Positions 2,516 through 60,004 of a stretch of 64,000 nucleotides of DNA are shown one piece after another. This stretch comes from Planctomycetaceae bacterium (GTDB lineage: Bacteria; Planctomycetota; Planctomycetia; Planctomycetales; Planctomycetaceae). How positions within the stretch are numbered: position 1 is the first letter of the stretch; every line of letters begins with the position of its first letter. The translations under genes were made by a program, and so were the position numbers. The notes beneath the pieces were generated by a model, which worked only from the letters and a program-made list of their open reading frames with translations, searched no databases and was not told where the DNA came from. Location of the stretch: the NCBI GenBank assembly GCA_019636285.1, contig JAHBXV010000014.1, positions 1-64,000 on the forward strand, given 5' to 3'.

Positions 2516-4369
2516 ATGATCGCTAATCGCTGCTGGAATCGTAAGACACCACGGCTGGCAGTTGCGGCTGTTGCCTGGATGGGCAGCCTGATCGGGCTGG
2601 CGAATGGAGCGGAGGGACCAAACCCTCACGAAGTCGCGAAAGCGGTTGATGCTCGCCTGAAGCAGGCGTTCGAACAGAGCGGTGTGAAGGTCAGCCCGGT
2701 CTGCAAGGACGAAGACTTTCTGCGGCGGGTGTCACTCGATCTCACCGGACAGCTCCCCACCCCCCGTCAGACGACGCTCTTCGGTTTGAGCCCGGCGGCC
2801 AATAAGCGGGAGGCGATGGTCGACTCCCTGCTGACGTCCCCCGAGTTCGGCCGGCATTGGGCACGCTACTGGCGGGATGTGGTTTTTACCAACGCCACGA
2901 ATCAGCGAGCCCAACTTGGGCGGCAATCGTTCGAAGACTGGCTGGCGGCGGAATTCAATCGCGGCGCTGCGTGGGACGAAATGGCCACGGCACTACTCAC
3001 GGCGACGGGCGACGTTTATGACGAGGGGTCGACCGGCCTCTTGTTCGCACACGATGGCGACCCGAACGAAGTGGCGGCCGAGGCTTCGCGGATCTTTCTG
3101 GGAATTCAGATTCAGTGCGCGAGCTGTCATGACCATCCATCCGACGTCTGGAAGCGCGAGCAGTTCCATGAGTTGGCGGCCTACTTCCCTCGTGTCGGCG
3201 TGCGGCCCATTCGCGATGGCGAGCGAATCGTCTCGTACGAAGTGGTCTCGGTGAATGTCTCGCGTCCGAATCCGGGCGACGCGTTACGCGAAAACGCGGA
3301 CCGCATGGTGCGCATGCTGGACCGCAACGGTGACCAGAAAATCTCCAAGACCGAAGCCCAGAATGCCCGATTCGGCGGTCCACTTGCGACAGCGTACGAC
3401 CGCATTCTCGAAGTGGCGGATGCCGACAAGGACGGCCTCCTGAACGCCACTGAACTCAAGAATGTGCCCGCCCCCATGATGGGCCGCCAGCCGAATACCG
3501 AGCACTACATGCCGGATCTGAATGATCCCGCGTCGCGCGGCCGATTGATCCAGCCGAAATTCTTCGTCGATGGCTCGGAACCGGGCCAGTCACTTTCGGA
3601 CGAAAACCGCCGGGGTGCGATTGCCCGTTCGATGACGTCTCCGGAGAACCCCTGGTTCGCCAAGGCGCTGGTCAACCGGATGTGGTCGGAACTCTTGGGC
3701 GAAGGGTTCTATATGCCGGTCGACGACATCGGCCCGACCCGCGAGGCGCGGTTTCCCGAAGCGCTGGAGGCCCTTGCGGTGGGATTCACCGCGAGCGGCT
3801 ACGACTACAAGTGGCTGCTGAAGACTATCACGCTGACGGACGCCTATCAGCGTGAAATCCGGGCTGCCAGCGGATCGCCGGACGAACTCCCCTTCGCCGC
3901 GCAGAAGCCGACACGGCTGCGAGCGGACCAGGCGTTTAACGCGCTGCTGACTGTTCTGGGAGTCGCTGAGCCAACGCCGCGAGGTGGCGGCGACGGACCC
4001 GGTGCCCGGTTCCAGGCTTTGCGAAGCCCGCGATTCCAGTTCCAGCAACTGTTCGGGTTCGATCCCTCGACTCCGCAGGATGACCTGTTGGGGAACGTTC
4101 CGCAGTCACTGTTCCTGATGAACTCCACGACGCTGTCCGGGGCATTGACGGCCCAGCGAACGACGCGACTGGGACGAATCCTCTCGGAGTTTCCCGACGA
4201 CGGGGACGCACTCTCGGAACTTTATCTGCTGACGCTGGTGCGCGAACCGTCGAAGCGCGAGCGGGAGATCTTCAGCGAGTACCTGGCATCGGTCGGCAAT
4301 CGGGCGGAAGCCTATGAAGACCTGATGTGGAGCTTGCTCAATTCAGCGGAATTCCTGACGAAACGGTAG
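2516..4369 (+). CDS. DUF1549/DUF1553 domain protein with inserted EF-hand pair
   Basis: A 617-residue secreted protein. ATG 2516 follows a GAGG ribosome-binding site at good spacing, and a signal peptide ends in an ANGA-type site near residue 31. The DUF1549 part carries a CASCHDHP motif near residue 203. The DUF1553 part fills the C-terminal half (FAKALVNRMWSELLGEGFY region). Between them are two canonical calcium-binding EF-hand loops, residues 269-280 (DRNGDQKISKTE) and 302-313 (DADKDGLLNATE). Unlike the gene at 1-2282 it has no N-terminal cytochrome segment. It is followed 55 bases later by a DUF1501 gene, the usual planctomycete pairing, so the two are probably co-transcribed. Biochemical function is unknown. 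Confidence 0.9.
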   Translation: MIANRCWNRKTPRLAVAAVAWMGSLIGLANGAEGPNPHEVAKAVDARLKQAFEQSGVKVSPVCKDEDFLRRVSLDLTGQLPTPRQTTLFGLSPAANKREAMVDSLLTSPEFGRHWARYWRDVVFTNATNQRAQLGRQSFEDWLAAEFNRGAAWDEMATALLTATGDVYDEGSTGLLFAHDGDPNEVAAEASRIFLGIQIQCASCHDHPSDVWKREQFHELAAYFPRVGVRPIRDGERIVSYEVVSVNVSRPNPGDALRENADRMVRMLDRNGDQKISKTEAQNARFGGPLATAYDRILEVADADKDGLLNATELKNVPAPMMGRQPNTEHYMPDLNDPASRGRLIQPKFFVDGSEPGQSLSDENRRGAIARSMTSPENPWFAKALVNRMWSELLGEGFYMPVDDIGPTREARFPEALEALAVGFTASGYDYKWLLKTITLTDAYQREIRAASGSPDELPFAAQKPTRLRADQAFNALLTVLGVAEPTPRGGGDGPGARFQALRSPRFQFQQLFGFDPSTPQDDLLGNVPQSLFLMNSTTLSGALTAQRTTRLGRILSEFPDDGDALSELYLLTLVREPSKREREIFSEYLASVGNRAEAYEDLMWSLLNSAEFLTKR

Positions 4370-4424: not shown

Positions 4425-5717
4425 ATGTCTATCGCCCGACACGACAATATCGCAATGACGCATCGGGGGTTTTCCCGCCGTAGTTTCCTGCACACGGTCT
4501 CGGCTGCGTCGCTCGCAGCGGGATCGCTGGGAATTCGCGACGTGGCGACGCTGCATGCCGAGGAACTGAAGCGGCAGCACAAGTCGATGATTCTGTTGTG
4601 GATGGCGGGCGGCCCCAGCCAGTTGGAGACGTTCGACCCCAAGCCGGGAACGGAAAATGGTGGACCGACGGAAGCGATTTCGACGGCGGTCGACGGCATT
4701 CAGATCGCTAAAGGCTGGGAACGCACCGCCCGGCAGATGAAGGAGATCACGGTCCTGCGATCGCTCACCAATAAGGAAGGTCAGCACGACCGGGCGACTT
4801 ATCAATTGCATACGGGCTATATTCCTTCGGGCTCGGTCAAACACCCCGCTCTCGGGTCGAACCTTGCCAAAGAACTCATGAGCGAGGCGCTCGAGTTGCC
4901 GTCGGTTGTCACCATTGGAGGCGGCCGCTTCGCCAACATTGGAGCCGGGTTCCTTGGAGTCGATTTCGAGCCTTTCCAAGTTAATAACCCCGGCGGTTTG
5001 CCGGACAATGTCGGCGTTGCTTCGACAAAACCCCGTTACGAGAGGCGTCTGGGCCTACTGGGCCGACTCGACGAAGAGTTCGCCCAACGCGGCGGAGAAA
5101 CGGTCGTCGAGAACCATCGCCGGATTTACGACAAGGCGTCGAAACTGGTGCTGAGCACCGAGACCGAAGCGTTCAACCTGGAACAGGAATCAGCCGCGAC
5201 GCGCGATGCGTATGGCCGCACCGCCTTCGGGAACGGGTGTCTTCTGGCACGGCGACTCGCCGAACGAGGCGTGCCGTTCATCGAAGTTCGTGTGAATGGC
5301 TGGGACACGCACCAGGACAACTTCGAAGCCATCGATCGCCTGGCTGGCGAAGTCGACCCCGGCATGGGAGCCCTGATTGGCGACTTGAAGGATCGGGGGC
5401 TGCTCGACTCGACTCTGGTTGTCTGGATGGGAGAATTTGGACGAACGCCGAGGGTCAATCCGCGCGGCGGTCGCGATCACTATCCGCGCGTGTTCAATGC
5501 CCTGCTAGCCGGGGGCGGAGTTCGAGGTGGTCAGGTGATCGGTAATTCCACGGCCGATGGAACCGCGGTCGCGGACGCTCCGGTGACCGTCCCGGATCTG
5601 TTCGTGTCGATCTGTCAGTCGCTCGGCGTCGACGCGGCCAAGGAACGGATGAGCCCGCTCGGCCGACCGATGAAGATCGTCGACGGGGGAACCGCGATCC
5701 CGGGTCTGTTCGGGTAG
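4425..5717 (+). CDS. DUF1501 family protein, Tat-exported
   Basis: A 430-residue protein of the DUF1501 family, which is distantly related to the alkaline phosphatase/sulfatase fold. The N-terminus has a twin-arginine signal (SRRSFLHT, about residues 17-24) followed by an alanine-rich hydrophobic stretch, so export in folded form is likely. Family motifs include WMAGGPSQLETFDPKPG near residue 60, GWDTHQDNF and WMGEFGRTPR with a GGRDHYP segment. ATG 4425 has a GAGGAAG ribosome-binding site; a second ATG 33 bases downstream is also possible. DUF1501 genes almost always accompany DUF1549/DUF1553 genes, as here. No enzymatic activity has been firmly assigned. Confidence 0.9.
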   Translation: MSIARHDNIAMTHRGFSRRSFLHTVSAASLAAGSLGIRDVATLHAEELKRQHKSMILLWMAGGPSQLETFDPKPGTENGGPTEAISTAVDGIQIAKGWERTARQMKEITVLRSLTNKEGQHDRATYQLHTGYIPSGSVKHPALGSNLAKELMSEALELPSVVTIGGGRFANIGAGFLGVDFEPFQVNNPGGLPDNVGVASTKPRYERRLGLLGRLDEEFAQRGGETVVENHRRIYDKASKLVLSTETEAFNLEQESAATRDAYGRTAFGNGCLLARRLAERGVPFIEVRVNGWDTHQDNFEAIDRLAGEVDPGMGALIGDLKDRGLLDSTLVVWMGEFGRTPRVNPRGGRDHYPRVFNALLAGGGVRGGQVIGNSTADGTAVADAPVTVPDLFVSICQSLGVDAAKERMSPLGRPMKIVDGGTAIPGLFG

Positions 5718-5752
5718 GCGCCCCAGCCCATTGATCGCGCTGAGTCGATAGA

Positions 5753-5881
5753 GCGCCCCAGCCGTTGCGTCTCCGCGACGGATCCTTATATCTGGCAAGA
5801 CATTGCGCACACAATGGTCTTCCAGGTTCGCGACGCGGGCGTCATACACCCGGCAGATTCTGCCGGAGTTGGGGCGTTTTT
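5753..5881 (+). ncRNA. Candidate structured RNA / multi-branched terminator-like element
   Basis: Downstream of the DUF1501 stop is a closed, multi-hairpin arrangement. The outer stem pairs 5754-5762 with 5868-5876 (CGCCCCAGC with GTTGGGGCG, one G-U pair) and is followed at once by a five-T run. Inside it are an 8-bp hairpin (5762-5769/5774-5781, TCTC loop), a 13-bp hairpin with two or three single-base bulges (5792-5805/5812-5825) and a perfect 7-bp hairpin (5850-5856/5860-5866). An 11-base copy of the 5' strand, GCGCCCCAGCC, also occurs at 5718-5728 and could compete for pairing. It could be a 3'-UTR structure, a terminator, or a small RNA. I recognise no known RNA family. Confidence 0.45.
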
Positions 5882-6080
5882 GCCGTCTTCTTCGGTCCGC
5901 CGCAACCTGAAGCGAGGAATGATCTTGACGGTCTTGCCGCTGGTCAAGAAAATCCCCCGACTTCGAGCCTTCAGGGTGACTTGAAGGGACTCGACCTGAG
6001 GATCAGGTCAAATACGCTGTTCTCGCGGAAGACAGTTCCTGGAATTTCCGCAACCGGCCTCGCAAAGGAGTGCATCAGCC

Positions 6081-6752
6081 GTGAAGAATTTCCTTCGTTC
6101 CGCGACCGCGGTCGCGCTGTTGGCGGGCATCGTGACCACGAGCGGAACGGCGTTCGGCCAAGGTGCCGCTCCGGTATCGCGCGACGTTCCCCACAAGGTG
6201 GGCCTGATCGACATGGCTCACATTTTCAAGAATTACAAGAAGTTCGAAGCTCTTCGCGAGGATCTGAAGACCAAGATCCAGCAAAGCGAAGAACAGATGA
6301 AGCAGATGGTCGGCTCGCTGCAGGCCAAGCAGAACGAGATGAAGACCCTGAAGGAAGGTTCGCCCGAGTTCACCGCCGCCGAGCAGCAAATGGCGAAGAT
6401 GACGGCCGACGCGGAAACGTATCGCCGCCAGATGCAGCGGGAATTCCTGAAGGAAGAATCGCAGATCTACCACACCGTTTACATGGAAGTGTCGGACGCC
6501 GTCAGCAAGTGGGCGACCTATCACAAGTACACGCTGGTGATCCGGTTCAACCGCGAAGAGCTCGACACGGAAAACCCCCAGAACCTGATTCAGGGAATGA
6601 ACCGCCAGGTGGTCTGGCACCGCGATGAAGACGACATGACGACGGCGGTGCTCGACTTCCTCAACAAGCAGTTCGCGTCGCAAGCCGGCGGAGCTGCTGC
6701 CGCTGCTCCTCGAGCCGCCACCCGTCCCGCAGCGACGACTCCCCGGAACTAG
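6081..6752 (+). CDS. skp: Skp/OmpH family periplasmic chaperone
   Basis: A 223-residue protein starting at GTG 6081 with an AAAGGAG ribosome-binding site 10 bases upstream. It has a signal peptide (cleavage near AFGQ, residues 24-27). The VGLIDMAHIFKNYKKF segment is typical of OmpH/Skp, and a long, charged, predicted coiled-coil region (about 55-135) corresponds to the chaperone tentacles. An Ala/Pro-rich low-complexity tail (about 200-223) is unusual. Skp holds unfolded outer-membrane proteins in the periplasm. Its position just before lpxC and lpxA places it in an outer-membrane biogenesis cluster, an arrangement known from Gram-negative bacteria (skp-lpxD-fabZ-lpxA). Confidence 0.88.
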   Translation: MKNFLRSATAVALLAGIVTTSGTAFGQGAAPVSRDVPHKVGLIDMAHIFKNYKKFEALREDLKTKIQQSEEQMKQMVGSLQAKQNEMKTLKEGSPEFTAAEQQMAKMTADAETYRRQMQREFLKEESQIYHTVYMEVSDAVSKWATYHKYTLVIRFNREELDTENPQNLIQGMNRQVVWHRDEDDMTTAVLDFLNKQFASQAGGAAAAAPRAATRPAATTPRN

Positions 6753-10089: not shown

Positions 10090-11904
10090 ATGATGCTGGT
10101 CCGATGCCTGGGGCTGTGTGGCCTTCTCATATCTGCCCTGTGGCTCGTCCAGCGCGACGTTCGGGCGGAACAACCGAACGTCATCGTCATTCTGGCCGAT
10201 GACCTGGGTTGGGCCGATCTGACGTGCTACGGGAGCACGTTTCATCGGACACCCTCGCTGGACCTGCTCGCCCAAAGCGGCGCCAAGTTCACGCAAGGCT
10301 ATGCGTCTTGCCCGGTCTGTTCGCCCACGCGTGCGGCCCTGTTAACGGGCAAGTGGCCGGCTCGGCTGCATCTAACCGACTGGCTCCCCGGCCGGGCCGA
10401 TCGCCCGGACCAGAAGTTGTTGCGTCCCGAGATTCGCCAGGAATTGGAACTGTCCGAAGTCACCCTCGCGGAACTGTTTCGCGCGGCGGACTACATGACG
10501 GGACACATCGGGAAGTGGCACCTGGGCGGTGACGGATTCTCCCCGCTGGAACAGGGCTTCCAGACAAACATCGGCGGCGATCATACGGGAACTCCGCTCA
10601 GCTATTTCGCACCGTACGAACGGAACGGGCGCTTCATGCCCGGCCTGGAAGAAGCTCCGGCGGGGGAGTACCTGACCGATCGCTACGGCCTGGAAGCCGA
10701 GAAATTCATCGAGGCAAATCGGAATCGTCCGTTCTTCCTGCAACTGTCGCACAATGCGGTGCATACGCCGATGAAAGCGCGAGAAGATCTGATTAAGCGC
10801 TATGAACTCGGCTCGGCTCCACCGGGTCAGCAGAGCAATCCCATCTACGCAGCGATGCTGGAAAGCCTCGACAATTCGGTCGGCCGGGTGATGAAAGCCT
10901 TGGAGCGGACTGGCCAGAAGGACCGGACAATCGTTGTCTTTACGTCGGACAATGGCGGGCTGGCGACCAAAGAAGGCCCCAACACTCCGGCAACCAGCAA
11001 CAGCCCCCTTCGCGAAGGCAAGGGTTGGCTGTACGAAGGCGGGATTCGTGTGCCGCTGATCGTCTCCTGGCCCGGAAAAATCGCGGCGGGCAAGGTTGTT
11101 GAGGCCCCGGCCTCATCGATCGACCTGCTCCCGACGTTGGTCGAATTGTGCGGACTCACCGCTCCGAAAAACGCTGATGGAATCTCGCTGAAGCCCGTTC
11201 TCTTCGAACCGGCTGCCACGCTGGAACGCGAGGCGATGTATTGGCATTACCCTCATTATGCCAACCAGGGGGGTAAGCCCGGCGGCGTGATCCGGCAAGG
11301 GAACTGGAAGCTGATCGAGTTCTACGAAAACGGCCGTCGAGAACTCTACGACGTGCAAAAAGACCCGCGCGAGTTGCAGAACATCGCGGACAAGCACTCG
11401 GAGCAGGTGACTGCGATGGCTGCGGCACTCGAAGCGTGGCGGGAATCGGTGGGGGCTCAGCGGAACGTTCCGAACCCCGATTACGTCCCCCATCCGCCGG
11501 GAAAAGACGGCACGATTGAGCTGCCAGCCCGGGGAGCCCAGGTACATGGGGCGATGCTGCGGTACGAACCGCTGCCACATAAGAACACGCTCGGTTTCTG
11601 GACCCGCGCGGAAGACTGGGCAAGCTGGGAACTGACGGTCGAGAAGCCCGGCACCTATGCGCTCGAAGGTGAAATCGGCTGCGGAGCCAAGAGCGGCGGC
11701 AGCGAAGTGGCGTTCGAGGTGGCTGGCCAGACCTTAAAATACACAGTCGCCGAAACCGGGGGCTTCCAGATGTTCGTGGCGACGCCGCTCGGCCAGGTTC
11801 GCTTCGATGCTCCCGGACGGTACACGCTGACGGTCCGTGCCGTATCCAAACCAGGTCCGGCCGTCATGGACTTGCGACAGTTGACTCTCAAACCCGTGCC
11901 GTAA
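10090..11904 (+). CDS. Secreted type I sulfatase with C-terminal beta-sandwich-like domain
   Basis: A 604-residue arylsulfatase-family enzyme with a signal peptide (cleavage after DVRA, near residue 26). The sulfatase core begins with ILADDLGWAD (metal-binding D37/D38). Cys77 lies in CSPTR, the site converted to formylglycine. GKWHLGG and FTSDNGG motifs follow. The core ends near residue 475; the last 125 residues (TIELPAR through the C-terminus) look like an added beta-rich, possibly carbohydrate-binding domain. Planctomycetes use such enzymes on sulfated polysaccharides. The substrate cannot be named. The palindromic repeat at 11923 lies just beyond the stop. Confidence 0.92.
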   Translation: MMLVRCLGLCGLLISALWLVQRDVRAEQPNVIVILADDLGWADLTCYGSTFHRTPSLDLLAQSGAKFTQGYASCPVCSPTRAALLTGKWPARLHLTDWLPGRADRPDQKLLRPEIRQELELSEVTLAELFRAADYMTGHIGKWHLGGDGFSPLEQGFQTNIGGDHTGTPLSYFAPYERNGRFMPGLEEAPAGEYLTDRYGLEAEKFIEANRNRPFFLQLSHNAVHTPMKAREDLIKRYELGSAPPGQQSNPIYAAMLESLDNSVGRVMKALERTGQKDRTIVVFTSDNGGLATKEGPNTPATSNSPLREGKGWLYEGGIRVPLIVSWPGKIAAGKVVEAPASSIDLLPTLVELCGLTAPKNADGISLKPVLFEPAATLEREAMYWHYPHYANQGGKPGGVIRQGNWKLIEFYENGRRELYDVQKDPRELQNIADKHSEQVTAMAAALEAWRESVGAQRNVPNPDYVPHPPGKDGTIELPARGAQVHGAMLRYEPLPHKNTLGFWTRAEDWASWELTVEKPGTYALEGEIGCGAKSGGSEVAFEVAGQTLKYTVAETGGFQMFVATPLGQVRFDAPGRYTLTVRAVSKPGPAVMDLRQLTLKPVP

Positions 11905-11922
11905 TTGGGCATAGCCGCTTTT

Positions 11923-11988
11923 TAGCCGCGACCCAACGGGGAGCGTTCTGATTTTCCGAGCGGAGCGCTCCCCGTTGGGTCGCGGCTA
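11923..11988. repeat. Perfect 23-bp inverted repeat, family A
   Basis: Arms 11923-11945 and 11966-11988 are exact reverse complements separated by a 20-base spacer; the arm core is CCCGTTGGGTCGCGG. It starts about 20 bases after the sulfatase stop and has no T run. One arm recurs at 2386-2410. This fits a dispersed palindromic (REP-like) element that may act as a transcript end or stability structure. Confidence 0.85.
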
Positions 11989-12075
11989 CGCGAGGAATCT
12001 GGGAGAATTCCGCGACTCGCGCCGGGACTGGTCCGCGCGCCGGTGTCATTTATTTCCGCGAAAGCCGTTTGTTCC

Positions 12076-44815: not shown

Positions 44816-44901
44816 GGGGTGGCTCACCCCAAGTCGTCGAAGGGCGTGGCGAATGGCCAAAGTCCCACGCCCTTCCGCAAAGCCGTCAGGGCATGCCACC
44901 C
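44816..44901. repeat. MITE-like palindromic repeat, family B, copy 1
   Basis: An element of about 85 bases, the reverse-oriented counterpart of 59867-59953. It contains the nested pair AAGGGCGTG (44840-44848) and CACGCCCTT (44866-44874) and the outer TCAGGGCATGCCACC (44886-44900). Its left arm (GGTGGCTCACC) has diverged. It fills most of the gap before the GH18 gene. Confidence 0.75.
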
Positions 44902-45000
44902 AAGCATTTTTGAGGGCATTTCGATTGCCCGCGACCCGTTCAGAACGGCAGAATTCCCACACTCCCGTCCGTTCCGGTCACTCAGAGAGGCGTTGAATTC

Positions 45001-59224: not shown

Positions 59225-59859
59225 ATGGCCATGTTGACGCCGCTACGGAGTGATGGTGATCGAATCACCCTGCCGAACGTGGGCTGGCGGTTGTACGCGC
59301 AACTTCGCGACGATCCGTCGCGCTCGGGCGTGCGGATGACCTACCATCGGGGAGTGCTCGAACTGATGTCTCCCTCCGGACCGCATGAACGTATTCGTCG
59401 ACTGCTGGAGCTACTGGTCGCTGAGTGGTGCGTCCATCATCGAATCGCCCGCGCCACGTTTGGCAGCACCACCATCGGCGGGAAGATCTGCAATCAGGGC
59501 TGGAACCGGATGCCTGTTTCTATATCGAGCACGAAGCCGACGTTCGGGATCACGAGGAGATCGACCTCGCGATCCATCCTCCGCCTGACCTCGTGCTGGA
59601 AGTTGAAATCAGCCGATCGACTGCCGGACGGTTGGCCATCTACGCCGAGATGGGCGTGCCTGAAGTCTGGCGCACTGACGGAGACGTCCTGCGCATGTGC
59701 CGGCTCGACGAAGAGGGGACATATCGCGAAGTTCGCGAGAGCCAGGCGCTTCCCGGTCTGAAGCCCGACGACCTTCGCCGATTCCTAGCACTGCGCACCG
59801 AGGTCGATGAGTCGACGCTCACGATCCAGTTCCGGGAATGGATGAGCGGCGGTGTGTAA
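59225..59859 (+). pseudogene. Frameshifted Uma2 family gene
   Basis: Two frames together make one Uma2 protein of about 210 residues. The first (from ATG 59225) gives YHRGVLELMSPSGPHERIRR and ATFGSTTI; the second continues RREDLQSGLEPDACFYIEHEA and DLVLEVEISRSTAGRLAIYA to 59859. The shift is at about 59475, where AT[C] must have lost one base (ATnCGGCGG). The conserved halves suggest a recent lesion or a sequencing error. Related intact gene at 39597. Confidence 0.82.
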
Positions 59860-59866
59860 TGACTGC

Positions 59867-59953
59867 TCAGGTGGCAGGCCCTGATGGCTTCGCGGAAGGG
59901 CGTGGTGTATGGGCTAACCTCACGCCCTTTGAAGACTCAGGGCGTGCCACCCA
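59867..59953. repeat. MITE-like palindromic repeat, family B, copy 2
   Basis: About 85 bases with outer inverted repeats GGTGGCAGGCCCTGA (59870-59884) and TCAGGGCGTGCCACC (59937-59951), 14 of 15 matching, and an inner pair AAGGGCGTG (59896-59904) with CACGCCCTT (59921-59929). The reverse complement aligns along its length with 44816-44901. It sits 8 bases after the Uma2 remnant. Confidence 0.82.
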
Positions 59954-60004
59954 GGAATGCGATTCTTCCGTCGACATCAAGCAAATTATCGCGTTTGCCG
60001 GGGG

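Follow-up and report, generated by a model that had tools for sequence, protein, structure and literature searches.

A multi-hairpin element between a DUF1501 gene and an ompH-lpxC-lpxA group in a Planctomycetaceae bacterium, and its possible role as a transcript end

In cluster-hairpin intrinsic terminators the hairpins lie less than 15 bases apart, and 98% are found no further than 80 bases from the stop codon (Gupta and Pal 2021; PMC8355165). In mycobacteria, terminators that lack a U tail have been reported to predominate (PMC12288462). A comparable arrangement is present in the draft genome of a Planctomycetaceae bacterium (6.37 Mb, 113 contigs), at 5750-5880 of the window, i.e. the whole 64,000-nucleotide stretch of contig JAHBXV010000014.1 analysed here. 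Gaps between its consecutive hairpins measure 11, 0 and 9 nt, and the preceding stop codon ends at 5717, with the outer stem starting 33 nt on (5750) and the first hairpin 46 nt on (5763), so that both spacing and position fall within the described ranges. The U tract is short (UUUUUGCC), which is no bar to termination given the predominance of U-tail-less terminators in mycobacteria.

Fold and gene setting of the element

The multi-hairpin structure is real, and its fold, strand, position and U tract are directly observed. A sequence-only reading of this DNA had described hairpins within an outer stem abutting a TTTTT run; the recomputed fold bears out this arrangement and its coordinates, with the 9-bp core originally proposed forming part of a 13-bp outer stem (G-U and T-run pairs counted in) that encloses four hairpins (7, 13, 6 and 7 bp) in a long-range loop of 105 nt (Table 1). 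The minimum free energy (MFE) of 5745-5890 is -65.8 kcal/mol, compared with -48.3 +/- 4.0 kcal/mol for dinucleotide shuffles (z -4.33), and 0 of 200 shuffles match it. A z of -5.6 is obtained for 5750-5881, a value inflated because these boundaries were picked on structure. Three of the four inner hairpins each beat nearly all shuffles, hairpin 3 being weak, and the energy density of the element is -0.470 kcal/mol/nt. The minus strand also folds (-57.0 kcal/mol), but without a T run at its end.

Table 1. Coordinates of the element, its parts and the neighbouring features in the window.
Feature	Position	Strand	Basis
DUF1549/DUF1553 (PSCyt2/PSD1) gene, first of upstream pair	2516..4369	+	Pfam PF07583, PF07587
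DUF1501 gene, mRNA 3' end bears the element	4425..5717	+	Pfam PF07394, E 4.9e-106
Distal copy of 5' arm word GCGCCCCAGCC, directly after stop codon	5718..5728	+	sequence
Outer stem, 5' arm	5750..5762	+	computed fold
Hairpin 1, 7 bp	5763..5780	+	computed fold
Hairpin 2, 13 bp with two single-base bulges	5792..5825	+	computed fold
Hairpin 3, 6 bp, weak (z -1.6)	5826..5840	+	computed fold; absent from the sequence-only list
Hairpin 4, 7 bp; palindrome CCGGCAGATTCTGCCGG	5850..5866	+	computed fold; motif also in relatives
Outer stem, 3' arm, into T tract	5868..5880	+	computed fold
TTTTT, proposed termination zone	5877..5881	+	sequence
Promoter-like site TTGACG-17-GAAAAT, between element and ompH	5925..5953	+	consensus match only
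ompH/skp gene, opens the ompH-lpxC-lpxA group	6081..6752	+	Pfam PF03938

The placement of the element after a DUF1501 gene and before an Skp cluster, as first read, is confirmed by Pfam matches for DUF1501 and ompH. Three overlapping frames (5505-5849 and 5494-5814 on the minus strand, 5765-6628 on the plus strand) were rejected as coding, having no Pfam match. The promoter-like site downstream of the element agrees with ompH being transcribed separately, and a scan of 5500-5753 found no such site upstream. An inverted repeat, TCTTGAC-N13-GTCAAGA (5923-5949), overlaps the promoter-like site and could be an operator.

DUF1501 orthologues in the nearest genera are 69% identical at the protein level, and in relatives the sequence behind them is unrelated and often contains long hairpins, with strong ones at several loci (L071, L072, L078, L081, L084 and L087). 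Synteny was searched both via ompH and via DUF1501. Among the fetched loci with a readable upstream flank, the window genome (L038) is the sole one with DUF1501 beside ompH; two ompH loci have about 660 bases upstream (L043, L068), and a third, with only 16, was not judged (L060). As this adjacency occurs in no relative's readable ompH locus, the gap holding the element, or its vicinity, may contain a rearrangement breakpoint (4425-6081). An LpxC search of genome contigs returned only two relatives, and the nearest named one is a contig labelled Schlesneria paludicola.

The 5' strand of the outer stem had also been noted as duplicated at 5718-5728, with alternative pairing proposed. The second copy of this 11-nt word (GCGCCCCAGCC) is confirmed at 5753-5763 (proximal copy), and 5868-5877 can pair with either. 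Partition-function calculations give the proximal arm a probability of ~1.0 of pairing with the 3' arm in RNAs starting at 5650 or 5690, and of 0.64-0.99 in those starting at 5700, whereas in RNAs starting at 5718 the distal arm pairs with a probability of 0.29-0.98, depending on the 3' end, and is preferred for three of the four 3' ends tried. Alternative pairing thus stands for RNAs from about 5718 and falls once upstream sequence from 5690 or earlier is included. An arm switch in the full-length mRNA is rejected on the proximal pairing of ~1.0; given that the distal arm is preferred only in RNAs from about 5718, a switch would depend on cleavage close to the stop codon that leaves a new 5' end there. 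These modelled pairings lend no support to a two-state switch.

Chance expectation, conservation and repeats

Genome statistics were computed on 862 kb of the source genome. On the two strands together, seven long-range stems reach 9 bp or longer with no more than one G-U, enclose 60-200 nt and run straight into T5, compared with 7.5 +/- 2.1 in shuffles, so that the long-range stem and T5 alone are no evidence of function. When at least three enclosed hairpins and an MFE per nt of at most -0.45 or -0.478 are added, the expectation becomes 0.034 or 0.014 per 64 kb, and about 3.4 or 1.4 per 6.37-Mb genome; the full combination is therefore notable in one window and unremarkable per genome. The earlier view that the structure is hard to expect by chance accordingly holds for the local fold (z -4.33) and for its rarity per 64 kb, but not for the stem and T5, which occur at the shuffle rate, nor at the scale of the genome. 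Of the other six matches to the long-range class, four were inspected and all lie within or overlap long open reading frames (as judged from frames only), so this match could also be due to chance; its location just after a stop codon and on the right strand favours function somewhat.

Many genes in this genome have a strong fold on their 3' side, z being at or below -4 in 35 of 217 gaps (gene 3' side, at least 130 nt, from simple gene calls in the 862 kb). The element ranks 32nd among them, a rank that is approximate because the gene caller (longest open frames plus a codon-position GC filter) is crude and missed lpxC in the window. The top-ranked gaps are mostly long palindromes, several of which are dispersed repeats. 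On the plus strand of the window, the element is the eighth most stable non-overlapping 130-nt segment for its GC. One of the seven stretches folding better for GC holds a near-perfect 28-bp hairpin at 11922-11990, right after a gene ending at 11904; parts of it (23-33 nt) are repeated at 2385-2409 and in nine or more further stretches of the genome, marking it as a dispersed palindrome.

A search for homologues in other planctomycetes, proposed as a check by the sequence-only reading, came back empty. No relative of the element was found by DNA in 59 genomes, where matches of 15-43 nt represent chance or the hairpin-4 palindrome. A single-sequence covariance model with the fold, which recovers its own element at 166.7 bits, found nothing convincing beyond itself in 170 family genomes (the source and 169 others of the family, with no other of the same genus), nor in 20 near genomes under laxer filters. 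Its best outside match (21.4 bits, in G016) was rejected as a homologue because it rests on the hairpin-4 palindrome without terminator context, and matches of 17-19 bits without the palindrome were taken as chance. The model, at 0.59 bits per position, is a weak one; with no homologue in the nearest genera (about 69% DUF1501 identity), the element does not appear to be an old conserved RNA, though conservation at genus level is possible. Rfam 15 gave no match in the window at the gathering threshold and none in 5690-6090 at E<=5, in line with the earlier remark that no matching family is known. The exact structure appears species-specific as far as seen, and the genome comparisons do not support a conserved small RNA.

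The hairpin-4 palindrome, CGGCAGANTCTGCCG, has a distribution of its own. It occurs at 43 sites in 40 family genomes, with 12 in G016, 10 in G001 and 7 in G005 and others in G011 and G014 (loci L123-L150), whereas a composition-matched palindrome gives 7 and the reversed pattern 1. The centre is almost always A/T and the flanks are not shared, and the motif is possibly a binding site or an iterated palindrome. No literature report of it in planctomycetes was found, the sole text match being a Streptomyces coelicolor paper. Three families of dispersed structured repeats were also observed in the source genome. A long inverted repeat, GTGTGCCACTGGC..GCCAGTG ... CACTGGC..GCCAGTGGCACAC, is MITE/REP-like and lies at gene ends, with 21 core matches in 862 kb (L169:5362, L171, L175, L176, L181, L182 and others); several of the copies carry CTTAAG. 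Gene ends also bear another family of inverted repeats, GTAACCCGAAGCGTCAGCGAGGG ... CCCTCGCTGACGCTTCGGGTTAC (L153:7769, L171:16588; five core matches in 862 kb). A third, GGTGGCAGGCCCTGA...AAGGGCGTGG...CACGCCC, is present at 59821-59990 and 44817-44906, with copies 74-82% identical in L164, L172, L175 and L184.

Proposed transcript end, rival readings and known systems

The element probably forms the 3' terminus of the DUF1549-DUF1501 transcript, serving as a multi-hairpin cluster terminator and/or a 3'-end protector, a reading held with moderate confidence. The GC-rich outer stem would gather the hairpin cluster and end at the short U tract; the cluster would make RNA polymerase pause and release at about 5877-5885, and/or block 3' exonucleases and thereby stabilize the mRNA 3' end. 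Less read-through would thus reach the ompH-lpxC-lpxA group, which is probably transcribed from its own promoter in the 200-bp gap. A multi-branched terminator was among the three options originally offered and fits best, given the right strand, the 46 nt from the stop codon, the T5, and the promoter-like site and separate gene group downstream; the small RNA and 3'-UTR regulator found no positive support. The strength of the fold, its orientation on the coding strand and the adjoining T5 argue for a terminator, as do the frequent strongly folded gene ends of this genome and the hairpins behind several DUF1501 orthologues; the lack of enrichment of long-range stems beside T5 as a class and the shortness of the U tract argue against one. 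Short-loop stems of at least 9 bp followed by T5 number 11 in 862 kb against 0.6 in shuffles, which makes intrinsic termination plausible in this genome; T-tailed intrinsic termination appears to operate here, at scarce sites. A simple pattern scan of 5500-6200 found no classical hairpin and T site. The genome contains a rho gene, and hence Rho may also act at the element, with the structure remaining as a stable end after trimming. Two proteins match the Rho RNA-binding domain (PF07497) above the cut-off (G000:C36:22535-22753 and G000:C70:44413-44637; L191, L192), the second of which, at a far lower score, may be a Rho paralogue.

That the element has no function, being GC-rich intergenic sequence that folds well with a chance long-range stem beside a T run, is unlikely but deserves weight: the stem and T5 occur at the shuffle rate, the full combination is expected one to three times per genome, and no conservation was seen by DNA or covariance model, yet no shuffle folds as well and the element lies on the correct strand, just past a stop codon, in a gap that separates two functional groups. 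A small RNA derived from the 3' UTR, or a cis regulator, processed to end at the T tract and perhaps switching between the duplicated arms, is improbable. Its compact multi-hairpin shape, U tract and two-copy 5' arm, together with the distal pairing reached in RNAs from 5718 depending on the 3' end, would suit such an RNA, but it has no Rfam match, no homologue in the family by either search and no promoter-like site in 5500-5753, and the proximal arm is always the one that pairs once the native upstream sequence is present. Hfq (PF17209) was also not found in the genome by a search that finds it in the Escherichia coli and Bacillus subtilis controls, making a small RNA role less likely. A more specific form of this idea seems very doubtful: a regulatory RNA of about 130-165 nt, particular to this lineage and derived from the 3' UTR, would be processed near the stop codon, and competition between its identical 5' arms for pairing with the single 3' arm would set ompH-lpxC-lpxA read-through. 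Descent from a dispersed palindromic repeat family (REP/MITE-like) is scarcely credible: several such families lie at gene ends here and the hairpin-4 palindrome recurs in relatives, but no second copy, whole or in large part, was found genome-wide by DNA search or in the 862 kb at word size 7, and for the whole element this origin is largely refuted.

If the element does form the transcript end, it represents one more multi-hairpin gene end, with little wider meaning. It nevertheless provides a test case for hairpin-cluster transcript ends in planctomycetes, because this genome has few T-tailed terminators with short loops (11 in 862 kb) and many strongly folded gene ends (35 of 217 gaps).

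Among known systems, REP/MITE-like repeats resemble the element in that strong inverted repeats are common at gene 3' ends in this genome, but the element is single-copy. It shares a structured 3' UTR and a terminator-like end with 3'-UTR-derived bacterial small RNAs, but differs in that no conserved sequence or structure was found among the family genomes, no Rfam family matches it and no Hfq gene was detected in the genome. As in canonical (L-shaped) Rho-independent terminators, a GC-rich stem downstream of a gene leads directly into a T run; however, the loop is a 105-nt multi-hairpin one rather than one of 3-10 nt and the T run is short, so that the short-loop GC-rich hairpin of that class is missing. 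Unlike cluster-hairpin terminators, the element is also closed by an outer stem ending at T5, and termination here is predicted from sequence; like them, it comprises several close hairpins near a stop codon, on the coding strand of a GC-rich genome, in a class where the U tract is optional.
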